This document shows, piece after piece, positions 26,891 through 31,102 of a stretch of DNA of 64,000 bases. The translations under genes and the position numbers were made by a program. The notes under the pieces are model-generated. The model was not told the origin of the DNA. It did no database searches and worked only from the letters and a program-made list of their open reading frames with translations. The DNA lies in the NCBI RefSeq assembly GCF_003627075.1, contig NZ_CP032630.1, positions 2,480,001 to 2,544,000 on the forward strand, read 5' to 3'. This DNA is from Protaetiibacter intestinalis (lineage in GTDB: Bacteria; Actinomycetota; Actinomycetes; Actinomycetales; Microbacteriaceae). Each line of letters opens with the position of its first letter. The stretch's first letter is position 1.

Positions 26891-27049
26891 TAGACTGGCG
26901 GTGCTCACCACCCCGTCCGGCCAAGCCGGGTTCAGGGGAGAACCACAGGAGAGCGATCTGCACCGAGAATCCGGTCCGGCGTCTGCGCCGCACCGCCGAA
27001 GACGCGACGGTGCTCCGTCGCGATGGGGTCACAGCCCCCGAGGAGAACG
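26891..27049 (+). promoter_or_regulatory. Structured 5' leader of the SNF2 helicase gene
   Basis: TAGACT (26891-26896) is a good -10 box, giving a leader of about 145 bases. It holds successive hairpins: CCGGC/GCCGG (26917-26929), CGGCG/CGCCG with an outer CGGT/ACCG (26972-26995), an 8-bp CGCGACGG/CCGTCGCG (27003-27022) and GGGG/CCCC (27025-27038). The last ends two bases before the Shine-Dalgarno GAGGAGA (27040-27046). No known riboswitch class was recognised. Confidence 0.55.
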
Positions 27050-29182
27050 ATGGCCACATCGGGCCAGAAATCCCGTACCGGCACCAAGACGTCCGGGAGT
27101 CGGGGGACGCAACGACGCCGTCCCCACCAGGACGAGACGGGCATCATCCCCGTGCTCGCGCGCGTCGTGCGCGGCATCGAGAACGCGGCCGACCGCGGCA
27201 AGGTGAACGCGGCGAACCGCGTGCGCTACCGCGTGGTCGCCGTGCTCGCGCGCGAGGAGCGCGCCCGCATCAAGGCGGATGCGGGTCTCAGCGACGCGGA
27301 GCGCACCAAGGAGCTCACGCGTCTCGACGGCATCGCCACGATCATGGCGAAGACGGCCGCGCGCGACGCGAGCCTCATCCAGCTGCTCACGGATGCCGCG
27401 CCGCTCACGCCCGCGCAGCAGGAGGTGCGTCGCGGCCTGCTGCTCGAGGCCGGCACCCCGCTCGCGCCCGAGGATCTCGTGGTCGTCGTGGAGCCCGAGC
27501 AGAAGCCGGTCGCCGAGGAGCGGCGCGTCGTGCCGCAGTCGGTGCGGCAGTACCAGATGTCGAACCCGTTCCTCGCGCCCGACTTCAGCGCCTACCAGAA
27601 GCCGGCCCCCGCCTCGCGCAGCGGCCAGCTCGACAACTGGGAGCTCATCGAGCCGCTGTTCCGCGCCTTCGAGGTGGGGGCGGGCGGCGGAGCCGCGAGC
27701 ATGGAGCTGCCGGAGGCGCGCTCCCTCGCGACGCCCGGCTCCCTCGAGCTCATGCGCCACCAGGCCCGTTTCGTCGAGTCGGCCCGGGAGGGCCACCGCA
27801 GCTACCTGCTCGCCGACGAGCCGGGCCTCGGCAAGACGGCGCAGGCGCTGCTCGCGGCCGACGTCGCGAACGCCTACCCGCTGCTCGTCGTCGTGCCCAA
27901 CGTCGTCAAGGTGAACTGGGCGCGCGAGGTCGAGAAGTGGACGCCGCAGCGCACCGCGACCGTCGTGCACGGCGACGGCGACGACATCGACGCCTTCGCC
28001 GACATCGTCATCGTCAACTACGAGGTGCTCGATCGGCACGTCGCGTGGCTCTCGCGGCGCGGCTTCCGCGGCATGATCGTCGACGAGGCCCACTTCATCA
28101 AGAACAAGGACTCCCAGCGCTCGAAGCACGTGCAGGCGCTCTCGCGCAGCATCCGGCAGAGCATCCGGCAGCCGTTGCTCGTCGCACTGACCGGCACGCC
28201 GCTCATCAACCAGATCGAGGACTTCCGGATGATCTGGCAGTTCCTCGGCTGGATCGACGAGAAGAAGCCGCTGCCGGCGCTCATGGCGGCGCTCGAGGAG
28301 ACCGAGCTGACCCCCGTCGACCCCGGCTTCTTCGCCGCCGCACGTCGCGCCGTGGTGGGCATGGGCATCGTGCGTCGCAAGAAGGTCGACGTCGCCGCCG
28401 ACATCCCGGCGCGCCGCATCGCCGACATCCCGGTCGAACTCGACGGCGAGGCCGGCCGCTCGATCCGCGAGGCCGAGCGCGCGCTCGTCGCGCGGCTCGT
28501 GGAGCGCTACCGGCGGCTGCGCGCGACGCGACCGGATTCGGAGACCGACGACCTCATCCGCCTCGTCGCGGCGGCCGAGCTCGAGGAGTCGAAACAGGCG
28601 GACGCCTCGGGCGACAACGTCTTCACGATGGTGCGCCGCATCGGCCAGGCGAAGGCGACCCCGGCCGCGGACTACACGGTGAACCTCGCGCGCAACGTCG
28701 GCAAGGTGGTCTTCTTCGCGAAGCACATCGACGTCATGGACGCGGCGGAGCGCTACTTCGCCCAGGCGGGGCTGCGCACGGTCTCGATCCGCGGCGACCA
28801 GAGCTCGAAGGCGCGCCAGGCGGAGATCGACGCCTTCCAGAACGATCCCGAGGTCGCCATCGCGGTGTGCTCGCTCACGGCGGCGGGCGTCGGGGTGAAC
28901 CTGCAGGCGGCGTCCAACGTCGTGCTCGCGGAGCTGAGCTGGACCAACGCCGAGCAGACCCAGGCGATCGACCGCGTGCACCGCATCGGTCAGGAGCTGC
29001 CGGTGACCGCCTGGCGGATCATCGCGGCGCAGACGATCGACGGCCGCATCGCCGAGCTCATCGACTCGAAGGCGGGCCTCGCGGCGCGCGCCCTCGACGG
29101 CGAGGCGGCCGAGGGCGTCGAGGTGTCGGTGCAGCTCGAGGCGCTCGTCGCGCTGCTCCGCGACGCGGTGGCCGAGCTCTGA
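27050..29182 (+). CDS. SNF2-family DNA-dependent ATPase/helicase
   Basis: A 710-residue superfamily 2 translocase. The first 190 residues are a charged region without recognised domains. The ATPase core follows: motif I DEPGLGKTAQ (about 255), PNVVKVNWAREVEKW (Ia), motif II DEAH (about 344), LTGTPLIN (III), and in the C-terminal lobe KVVFFAKH, LTAAGVGVNLQAASNVV (V) and QAIDRVHRIGQ (VI), the SWI2/SNF2 signature. It probably remodels protein-DNA complexes or acts in repair. ATG 27050 is chosen for its GAGGAGA site over an in-frame ATG at 27023. Confidence 0.93.
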   Translation: MATSGQKSRTGTKTSGSRGTQRRRPHQDETGIIPVLARVVRGIENAADRGKVNAANRVRYRVVAVLAREERARIKADAGLSDAERTKELTRLDGIATIMAKTAARDASLIQLLTDAAPLTPAQQEVRRGLLLEAGTPLAPEDLVVVVEPEQKPVAEERRVVPQSVRQYQMSNPFLAPDFSAYQKPAPASRSGQLDNWELIEPLFRAFEVGAGGGAASMELPEARSLATPGSLELMRHQARFVESAREGHRSYLLADEPGLGKTAQALLAADVANAYPLLVVVPNVVKVNWAREVEKWTPQRTATVVHGDGDDIDAFADIVIVNYEVLDRHVAWLSRRGFRGMIVDEAHFIKNKDSQRSKHVQALSRSIRQSIRQPLLVALTGTPLINQIEDFRMIWQFLGWIDEKKPLPALMAALEETELTPVDPGFFAAARRAVVGMGIVRRKKVDVAADIPARRIADIPVELDGEAGRSIREAERALVARLVERYRRLRATRPDSETDDLIRLVAAAELEESKQADASGDNVFTMVRRIGQAKATPAADYTVNLARNVGKVVFFAKHIDVMDAAERYFAQAGLRTVSIRGDQSSKARQAEIDAFQNDPEVAIAVCSLTAAGVGVNLQAASNVVLAELSWTNAEQTQAIDRVHRIGQELPVTAWRIIAAQTIDGRIAELIDSKAGLAARALDGEAAEGVEVSVQLEALVALLRDAVAEL

Positions 29183-29200
29183 CGCCACCCGCGCGCAACC

Positions 29201-29256
29201 CTCAACTATCTAGCGAGACTTCACGGGTTGTGCGGTGTTCACCGCTGAGTATTCTC
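29201..29256 (+). promoter_or_regulatory. Promoter module, copy A of a 56-bp repeat
   Basis: A 56-bp block matches 29643-29698 at 51 of 56 positions. It contains an upstream CTCAACTATCTAGCGAG near-palindrome, TTGTGC (29228-29233) as -35, a 16-bp spacer with GTTCACCGCTGAG, and TATTCT (29250-29255) as -10. A second GTTCACC follows 22 bp after the first (29259-29265). It would start transcription near 29262. Confidence 0.7.
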
Positions 29257-29261
29257 GTGTT

Positions 29262-29380
29262 CACCGAAAGGCGCGGATCCCCCCGGGGATCGGCCGGACG
29301 GTGACAGAAAGGCCCTCGGGGCTCGACGAACCGCTGGTGCTTCGGCGCCGGGGGAACGCGGCAACCGGGGGCCTTTCGTC
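29262..29380 (+). ncRNA. Candidate small RNA A, about 120 nt
   Basis: The segment between promoter copy A and a terminator-like stem folds into two domains. The first pairs CACCG (29262-29266) with CGGTG (29299-29303) and carries GATCCCC/GGGGATC with a run of six C (29279-29284). The second is closed by GAAAGGCCC (29307-29315) and GGGCCTTTC (29369-29377), and holds a GGTGC-TTCG-GCGCC hairpin with a UUCG tetraloop (29336-29349). No protein-coding frame fits. The C-run recalls the actinobacterial 6C RNA, but that family has two C-rich loops. Confidence 0.6.
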
Positions 29381-29477
29381 GTTCCCGGGGAGCGGCTGCC
29401 GGCCCGGATGCTAGGCCCGTGGGCGGCCCGTCGTCAGTCACCCGTAGTGGGGGGCGCGCGGGTCGGACGCGGGCTTC

Positions 29478-29600
29478 TATGGTGATGACTGCACTAGTTG
29501 GGGGACTAGGCGGCGGCGGTGATCCTGTCTTCATCGCGATTCCGATACGGGGGTACGAGGAATCGCGGACAGCATCACCGCCGCCCATGTTTAACCCCTC
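29478..29600 (+). ncRNA. Long near-perfect hairpin, candidate RNA or DNA cruciform
   Basis: GGCGGCGGTGAT (29512-29523) pairs with ATCACCGCCGCC (29574-29585). After one mismatch come five more pairs. After a five-base bulge, CGCGATTCC (29535-29543) pairs with GGAATCGCG (29559-29567). The loop contains GGGGG. Just upstream is a second hairpin, CTAGT-TGGGGG-ACTAG (29494-29509), also with a G5 loop. TATGGT (29478-29483) could be its -10 box. No coding frame, and no matching copy elsewhere in the window. Confidence 0.5.
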
Positions 29601-29642
29601 GTGCGCGCCCCGAGGCCGTTCGGCCGGCGTCCGACGAGGAGT

Positions 29643-29698
29643 CTCAACTATCTAGTGAGACTTCACGGCTTGTGCGCCGTTCACCGCTGAGTAATCTC
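29643..29698 (+). promoter_or_regulatory. Promoter module, copy B of a 56-bp repeat
   Basis: The second copy has CTCAACTATCTAGTGAG, TTGTGC (29670-29675), a 16-bp spacer with GTTCACCGCTGAG, and TAATCT (29692-29697). The conserved spacer and upstream palindrome suggest a shared regulator. It would start transcription near 29704, leading into a hairpin-rich stretch of over 500 bases. Confidence 0.7.
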
Positions 29699-29702
29699 TA
29701 CT

Positions 29703-30221
29703 CAACCGATGAGGCGCGAACCCGACGCAAACGGAGAGATCCGGGAGTGAGCGGGGCGCAGCCGAAGCGGGGACGGTGTCTTCTCACGCCGAACGGGTCA
29801 GCCCGGGAGGGGTGGGGAGCGGTCCCAAGGGAACACGGAACGTGAGTTCCGTCCGTGGGACAGCACCGGGAAGCCGAGGGTGACACCTCGCAGCCGAGGA
29901 TGGTGGGCCGTAGGGCTCATCGGAGCCGGAGGCGGGGCGGATTCCGAGGATCCGACGCCGGAAGGCGGCGGTGACGAAGGGCCGGGCCGAGACGCAGCGG
30001 GGGAGACTCCGCAGGCGCCGACGCCCGGACCGGGTGCACCACCGGCTCCGGCCGAGGTCCCTCGGGGGAGACCCGCGATCCCGGAGCGGCCTCGGACGAG
30101 GTGGTTCGCCACCGGATCCGAGCTTCCGTCCTCACGGCGAACGCCCGACCCGAGAGCTCGCGGGGCGCGGCGGCCACATCGACACAGAAGGGCCCCTGGA
30201 CTAGCTACCCGGGGGCCCTTC
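29703..30221 (+). ncRNA. Candidate long structured RNA B, about 520 nt
   Basis: No frame here looks like protein: open frames are Pro/Arg/Gly-rich and lack starts with ribosome sites. Many local stems are visible. One pairs GTCCCA (29822-29827) with TGGGAC around a CACGGAA-CGTGAG-TTCCGT hairpin. Others are GGTGG-TTCG-CCACC (30100-30113, UUCG tetraloop) and TCCC-TCGG-GGGA (near 30058-30069). It runs from promoter copy B to the strong hairpin at 30187-30221. It lacks the conserved cores of RNase P RNA, tmRNA and SRP RNA. Ms1 (the mycobacterial RNA polymerase-binding RNA) or an unnamed family are possibilities. Confidence 0.55.
30187..30221. terminator. Bidirectional terminator-like hairpin
   Basis: GAAGGGCCCC (30187-30196) pairs with GGGGCCCTTC (30212-30221) around a 15-base loop. 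It lies at the end of the candidate long RNA and six bases beyond the stop of the convergent pabC, so it could end both transcripts. No T-run follows. Confidence 0.7.
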
Positions 30222-30226
30222 GTATG

Positions 30227-31102
30227 TCAGCGGACGCGCGCGAGCAGGGCGGCGTTCAGCCGGTCGCTGAGCTCCCGATCGACGGCGCGTGCGACCCCGT
30301 CCACGGCCCGCACGGGCGCCACGTGGCGCACGCTCGAGACGAGCCAGGCCGCATCCGCCGAGGCGAGGTCCGCGGGCGTCAGCAGCTCGTAGCCGGTCTC
30401 GTAGCCCTCGGCCTCGGCCCAGGTGAACAGGTCGGCCTGCGTCGTGCCCGCGAGGATGCCGAGGTCGACGCGCGGCGTCACGAGGCGCCGGCCGTGACGC
30501 AGCAGGAGCGTCGAGGTGGGTCCCTCGAGCAGGTAGCCGTCGCTCGAGGTGAACAGCACGTCCTCCGCGCCTCGCCTGGCCGCCTCGCGCAACGCCGCAC
30601 GGTTGACGGCGTAGCTGAGGGTCTTGGCCCCCGCGAGCAGCCACGGGGCCGTCTGCGGCACGTCGTGCCGGTAGCCGCGGTCGAGCAGCACGATGCGCAC
30701 GCCCTCCGTGCGTTCCCGGGAGAAGTCGGGGGATGCGGTGCCGTACACCCAGCCGGTCGGCGTGGAGCCGCCCTCGACGCCGCGCGTGAGCACGAACTTG
30801 ACGGCGCCCTCGTCGACGCCCTGGGCCGTCAGCGCCTCGCCGACCGCCTCGACGGCCGCGCGCCAGACGGCGGGGTCGGGCTCGGGGAGCTGCAGCATCG
30901 CGGCGGACTGGGCGAGTCGCGCGAGGTGCGCCTCGAGCGCGTGCACGTGGCCGTGCGCGAGGCTCGCGGTCTCGAAGATCCCGTCGCCGCGGGTCGCCGC
31001 GAGGTCGGTGACGAGCAGCTGCGGCTCCTCGGCGTCGCCGAGGTGGAAGCCGGTGGCCTCGCCCGTCGCCGGGTCGAAGTCGATGAGGGCGACGACGCTC
31101 AC
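30227..31102 (-). CDS. pabC: Aminodeoxychorismate lyase / class IV aminotransferase
   Basis: PabC converts 4-amino-4-deoxychorismate to 4-aminobenzoate for folate. The 291-residue PLP protein of fold type IV shows RGDGIFETASLAHGHV near the N terminus, KFVLTRGVEGG, the PLP-lysine region LAGAKTLSYAVNRAALREAARRGAEDVLFTSSDGYLLEGPTS, and GILAGTTQADL. Branched-chain aminotransferases and D-amino acid transaminases share this fold; the length and short loops favour PabC. The GTG start overlaps the upstream stop (GTGA). It converges on the non-coding region. Confidence 0.8.
   Translation of the reverse strand: MSVVALIDFDPATGEATGFHLGDAEEPQLLVTDLAATRGDGIFETASLAHGHVHALEAHLARLAQSAAMLQLPEPDPAVWRAAVEAVGEALTAQGVDEGAVKFVLTRGVEGGSTPTGWVYGTASPDFSRERTEGVRIVLLDRGYRHDVPQTAPWLLAGAKTLSYAVNRAALREAARRGAEDVLFTSSDGYLLEGPTSTLLLRHGRRLVTPRVDLGILAGTTQADLFTWAEAEGYETGYELLTPADLASADAAWLVSSVRHVAPVRAVDGVARAVDRELSDRLNAALLARVR

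Follow-up and report, generated by a model that had tools for sequence, protein, structure and literature searches.

What does a kilobase of DNA encode if it holds no credible protein gene? The stretch in question, positions 29183-30226 of the window (G000:C1:2480001-2544000, the whole 64,000 nucleotides analysed here, from the 3.1-Mb, single-contig genome G000), lies between a gene for an SNF2-family helicase (27023-29182, + strand; PF00176, E 3.1e-25) and a convergent gene for a pabC-like class IV aminotransferase (30227-31099, - strand, start approximate; PF01063, E 7.1e-47). A preliminary description had read it as a cluster of unnamed non-coding RNAs, two in number. Conserved position and covariation support the cluster. 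The locus very likely comprises three RNA genes on the + strand rather than two, referred to here as RNA1, the middle RNA and RNA2. Covariation beyond chance is combined with the lack of a coding signal, as expected of structured non-coding RNA genes, and sequence comparison makes it nearly certain that new structured RNA genes lie here. We therefore describe the stretch as a putative three-gene small-RNA locus.

A non-coding locus in part of the Microbacteriaceae

Open reading frames of at least 60 aa do occur inside 29183-30226. Compared with six genus relatives (L002-L007), however, the stretch as a whole had no codon phase in its substitutions (p 0.24-0.93); in both flanks, SNF2 and pabC, the phase was strong (all p <= 1e-7). 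The stretch is non-coding, in agreement with the preliminary description. In four of the six genus comparisons the middle RNA diverged by 7-8% vs 12-13% for the SNF2 gene; in the other two (L002 and L007) it differed by 12% and 19%, and SNF2 by 12% and 15%. Generic scans for sigma-70 promoters and U-run terminators gave no match in 28900-30400. The promoter boxes and RNA ends below were read by eye and from conservation, and all RNA starts and ends are to be taken as deduced in this way.

In searches of family and order genomes, convincing matches to the cluster were confined to some of the Microbacteriaceae. A DNA search recovered it in nine of nine genus genomes and 48 of 398 family genomes. 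A model of the middle RNA (R1) matched 28 of the 398, and a broader model (R2) at E <= 0.01 matched 53 of 329 family genomes, belonging to 24 of 85 genera; eight of these 53 are weak (E 5e-4 to 9e-3) and may be chance. At the order level R2 matched four of 366 genomes, namely G000 itself and three with weak, short matches (70-75 nt) that we took as chance rather than as a middle RNA outside the family, and the promoter pattern matched one of 366, again G000. A scan of the genome collection for the exact promoter motif returned 19 stretches, 17 of them in actinobacteria-named records, some named just to order or phylum; behind the motif in a Fischerella stretch no such RNA was seen. The same exact motif was found in no stretch of viral contigs. 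The remaining one of the 19 genome-collection stretches, on a contig of a Fimbriimonadaceae-named MAG (L057, JAHBTC010000032.1), carries a typical, Microbacteriaceae-like RNA1 and middle-RNA locus, and this contig is probably misbinned.

The position of the locus is also conserved. We inspected 47 middle-RNA loci, from 45 of the 53 R2-positive genomes plus G001 and G004, and found SNF2 and/or pabC within a flank of 500-1500 bases at 39 of them: SNF2 at 30, pabC at 25 and neither at eight (six of which have flanks of about 500 bases). In G030 pabC is on the opposite side of the RNA, and in genus g75 SNF2 is about 1 kb off. SNF2 was also present in 22 genera where the middle-RNA model had no match; no pabC was found around it, and the best middle-RNA match there had an E of 0.08.

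Two promoters and two probably related RNAs

The two near-identical promoters noted in the preliminary description hold up on closer comparison: a 67-nt sequence at 29201-29267 recurs at 29643-29709 with 85% identity. Promoter 1 (29201-29233, + strand), defined by this repeat, a pattern search and aligned sites, runs from the motif YTCAACYATCTAGYGAGACTTNACGNNTTGYG through a -35 box TTGTGC (29228-29233) and is followed by a -10 box TATTCT (29250-29255, + strand). Promoter 2 (29643-29675, + strand) has, on the same basis, the same motif with a -35 box TTGTGC (29670-29675) and a -10 box TAATCT (29692-29697, + strand); both -10 boxes were read from the sequence and its relatives. The motif comes from an alignment of 49 distinct sites in the fetched loci, with up to five substitutions allowed. 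At up to three mismatches a 29-base pattern matched twice in the whole of G000, with 0 control matches. The other eight genomes of the genus had one or two matches each, again with no control match. RNA1 and RNA2 would probably be induced together through this shared motif; PafBC was considered as a putative regulator.

RNA1 (29262-29382, + strand, about 120 nt) consists of a 5' hairpin, an ACAGAA linker and a terminator hairpin around a conserved CUCGACGAACC/GGAACGCGG internal loop. It folds better than its shuffles (z -4.32), and an alignment of 14 sequences gives 28 consensus pairs, seven of them with compensatory change. Two of the nine genus genomes, G002 and G007, have the middle RNA and RNA2 at the locus, but neither RNA1 nor its promoter was found there, and each has one copy of the motif. 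In genus g43 (L033/L073 and L036/L063), G303 and G266 each carry a tandem pair of 103-nt RNA1-like genes that share this promoter motif, spaced about 200 and 330 bases, and in G303 the middle RNA sits on a different contig from them.

RNA2 (29704-30222, + strand, about 519 nt) has a long-range closing helix (CGAUGAGGC with ...CAUCG), many inner hairpins, a ACACAGAA linker and a terminator hairpin. It also folds better than shuffled versions (z -5.57). The consensus of nine aligned genus sequences has 118 pairs, with 94.8% of cells paired and a double change in 29 pairs. None of 500 shuffles, a control that ignores kinship among the sequences, reached any of five measures, and slid versions of the structure had at most eight double-change pairs, a comparison that favours the real version in that the consensus structures were derived from the same MAFFT-aligned sequences (as for all three RNAs). 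Measured from the -10 box, RNA2 ranges from 117 to 533 nt at 18 loci; at a further one, L035, no end could be located. Since its length varies among loci, core and add-on parts can be told apart. One extra arm of about 100 nt occurs only in G000 and G002 among the nine aligned sequences, and within this arm G000 has a 23-nt direct repeat (29985-30007 and 30050-30072, 78% identical). RNA2 would be a large structured bacterial RNA with wide length variation.

The GC stems said to close both of these segments were found at 29307-29319/29365-29377 and 30187-30199/30209-30221, and UUCG-capped stems, too, are readable in both. RNA1 and RNA2 are probably paralogues, judging by their common promoter, closing helix, ACAGAA-type linker and terminator hairpin. 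The closing helix reads CACC/GGUG in RNA1 and CGAUGAGGC/GCCUCAUCG in the RNA2 of L002, and it has 5 bp in the RNA2 of G000. On the common plan of closing helix, inner hairpins, ACAGAA linker and terminator, RNA2 would have grown by the addition of hairpins. Both are probably stable, trans-acting RNAs.

The middle RNA and its G-tract loops

The very long hairpin that had been noticed between the two segments is real, its arms (29512-29529/29568-29585) being 94% complementary, and it belongs to a third RNA with a probable -10 box of its own, TATGGT (29478-29483, + strand; by eye), which is TAATCT- or TATCTT-like in relatives. This middle RNA (29490-29594, + strand, about 105 nt; model match 29482-29596) has a small hairpin with the loop UUGGGGGA, the long hairpin capped by UAC-GGGG-GUA, and a U-rich tail. 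Like RNA1 and RNA2, it folds better than shuffles (z -6.82), and compensatory changes are present in all three RNAs. For the middle RNA, 34 pairs were obtained from 18 sequences, 91.1% paired, with a double change in 11 vs up to seven in slid versions. None of 500 shuffles did as well on four measures, while 160 of 500 did on the fifth, further pair types. In a broader set of 20 sequences, seven of 15 pairs show a double change (slid versions up to five), and on four measures 0 of 500 shuffles reached the real value; on further pair types all 500 did.

Two loops stand out. Loop A (UUGGGGGA, 29498-29505, + strand), which carries GUUGGGGGAC in G000, and loop B (GGGGG, 29549-29553, + strand), which carries UACGGGGGUA, each have four of five Gs predicted unpaired, with P(unpaired) 1.0 in loop A. 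All 20 aligned sequences share four Gs of loop A and the five of loop B without variation, and the stem of loop B varies with compensatory changes while its loop stays invariant. Loop A has only four Gs in genus g80 and in G303 and six (CCGGGGGG) in G029, G030, G247 and G319; at divergent loci it always has at least four, with loop B lying outside the stretch displayed in L169, L172, L173, L174 and L176. In genus g49, G125, G179 and G227 have two further G-tract loops predicted to be exposed, GCGGAGGGGGAUUCCGC and the loop CGGGGG of a likely terminator, while their loop B is predicted to be partly paired. G268 has one extra loop, near-identical to GCGGAGGGGGAUUCCGC, and G056 one extra GCGGGGGGAAUCGC loop, likewise predicted to be exposed. 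G5 and G6 tracts beyond the middle RNA are seen at the g49 loci L132, L133, L134, L136 and L137, and some of these tracts fall in hairpin loops as predicted by folding; the CGGGGG likely-terminator loop is found at three of these five loci, and in three of them one tract is predicted to be paired. Altogether, the middle RNA likely works via its G-tract loops.

We asked on which strand, and as which molecule, these elements would act. A middle RNA read from the - strand would be a 6C-like RNA with C5 loops; this is ruled out by the -10 boxes on the + strand and the U-rich tail. Matches to R1 reach at most 35.5 bits on the opposite strand vs up to 130.3 bits on the assigned one. Upstream of the middle RNA lies a C-rich/G-rich dyad (29434-29460, + strand; by eye), similar in relatives (for example GACCCCCGGTCGGGGG...TGGGGGCA in L168), and such dyads are perhaps candidate regulator sites. 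Together with the strong promoter-like motif, dyads would be expected if the conserved elements acted as DNA, being regulator, recombination or replication signals rather than RNA. We consider this extremely unlikely, since the pairs are preserved by compensatory changes, nearly all R2 matches are on the assigned strand (G005 has a weak one, E 0.002, on the other), and the -10 boxes and terminator-like ends are in order. Transcription of the three RNAs is what we infer instead.

Possible partners of the G-tract loops

Loops of Gs invite pairing with loops of Cs, and the 6C RNA has two of them. In the model that we put forward tentatively, as quite possible but short of probable, the middle RNA titrates 6C: expressed from its own promoter, it would present G-tract loops on rigid stems, these would pair by kissing-loop contacts with C-tract loops, 6C's first of all, and 6C would thereby be titrated away from G-rich mRNA leaders. 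According to PMC10470900, a single C-rich loop of B11 (6C), whichever of the two, is enough for repression of a reporter carrying the eccB4 5' UTR with its six Gs, and mutation of both loops abolishes the repression; PMC6789036 reports a roughly two-fold increase of 6C in C. glutamicum treated with MMC. Should the middle RNA bind 6C, a conserved regulator of actinobacteria would have a natural antagonist. More doubtful is the larger proposal that a dedicated native 6C antagonist, a multi-loop G-tract decoy, and two structured RNAs induced together make up one regulatory unit in some of the Microbacteriaceae.

6C was present in 22 of the 25 genomes examined for it; no convincing copy was found in G001 and G005. 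The best match in G000 (G000:C1:1751361-1751436, 37.8 bits) is 0.76 Mb from the cluster and has two CCCCCC loops; the 6C loops are mostly UUCCCCCC, which the fold predicted for the G000 copy leaves exposed. Most genomes have loops that read UUCCCCCCAA; among the exceptions is G017, with five Cs. RF01066 matched 19 of 60 family genomes at E <= 0.001, one of the 60 over the cut-off, and seven of nine genus genomes at E <= 0.5, all seven below the cut-off. The RF01066 gathering value of 47 bits misses nearly all Microbacteriaceae copies of 6C as well as the C. glutamicum control.

A simple duplex-with-accessibility score ranked the pairing of a middle-RNA G-tract with a 6C C-loop first for 21 of 25 genomes (G224 entered with an offset stretch); in G000, G114, G017 and G040 the best duplex was not loop-loop. 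The probability that the middle-RNA stretch is fully open was at most 0.04 for 23 of the 25. It also speaks against pairing with 6C as such that a G-tract and a C-tract pair trivially. We then compared the loop flanks in 27 genomes where both RNAs could be read (G001 and G005, without a convincing 6C, and G224, whose loops were not extracted, are left out). Loop A has a C just before its Gs in 13 of them and a U in 14, and 6C has GA instead of AA in three of the 13 and none of the 14. GA occurs in both 6C loops of G125 and G179, where loop A has UC before its Gs, and in one 6C loop of G227. Since the change is confined to one genus it represents one event, and this co-variation is not counted as proof. 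In G227 a stretch that complements the 6C loop exactly (AUUGGGGGGAAU) was considered as an exposed loop and set aside, as it is predicted to pair with an upstream segment; its counterpart in G125 and G179 is also predicted paired.

Ten of the 13 genomes keep AA, so that the flank of loop A fails to follow 6C there. This would fit a middle RNA that targets mRNAs or other RNAs with C-rich stretches, 6C not being the partner, and G-tract loops would indeed bind any accessible C-tract. Such a role is rather unlikely in our estimate, as most of the genomes examined do have a 6C with two C-tract loops. The 16S rRNA 3' end offers another C-rich partner, as it carries CCUCC, which GGGGG can pair through one G-U, and one g49 hairpin reads GGAGGGGG. 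Mimicry of Shine-Dalgarno sequences by the G-tracts is nevertheless quite improbable: GGAGG is in none of the A and B loops read, and strict G-tracts better suit a C-tract. The partner could also be a protein. CsrB-type RNAs scaffold or sequester a protein, and if the G-loop hairpins were binding sites of this kind, the invariant loops on covarying stems and the extra G-tract loops of g49 would be equally expected; we consider this unlikely, and continue to favour titration of 6C as our working model.

Comparison with known RNA families

No Rfam family matched the cluster stretch at its gathering cut-off, and nothing credible appeared at E <= 10 in 29150-30280; mir-2242 and other weak matches were taken as chance. 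As the preliminary description had stated for the longer segment, the RNase P, SRP RNA and tmRNA cores are lacking: neither Rfam nor ARAGORN gave a match to these or to 6S. Among titles and abstract openings from a literature on 6C, on sRNAs of Microbacteriaceae and Clavibacter, on sponges and on structured-RNA discovery to which most subscription papers do not belong, none reports these RNAs, and a term search of the main text of two discovery papers (PMC11109978, PMC8632094) found no Clavibacter, Microbacteri-, Leifsonia or Actinobacteri-. They would be new RNA families in the Microbacteriaceae, for which the portion of the small-RNA literature that we found holds nothing related.

The nearest likenesses are partial. 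The terminator hairpin of RNA2 matches ftsZ-DE RNA (RF02985) weakly (26.5 bits, E 0.013), and membership is ruled out by a score far under the gathering value of 72.2. Mycobacterial Ms1 is a longer structured RNA encoded beside a short one, and the cluster has the same arrangement; RNA2, however, has no credible Rfam match even at E <= 10, in a library that may not hold Ms1. The comparison with 6C (RF01066; B11 in mycobacteria), which had been recommended, may prove useful in another sense than intended. The cluster is not 6C, given no RF01066 match at gathering in the window or at E <= 10 in 29150-30280 and a 6C encoded elsewhere, and 6C is instead a possible pairing partner. Like 6C, the middle RNA is a short actinobacterial RNA of two hairpins with a homopolymer tract in each loop, but its tract is G where that of 6C is C, with the strand taken as transcribed. 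In sRNA sponges a loop is complementary to that of a second sRNA, and this is the general class that the middle RNA would resemble if it paired with 6C as proposed.
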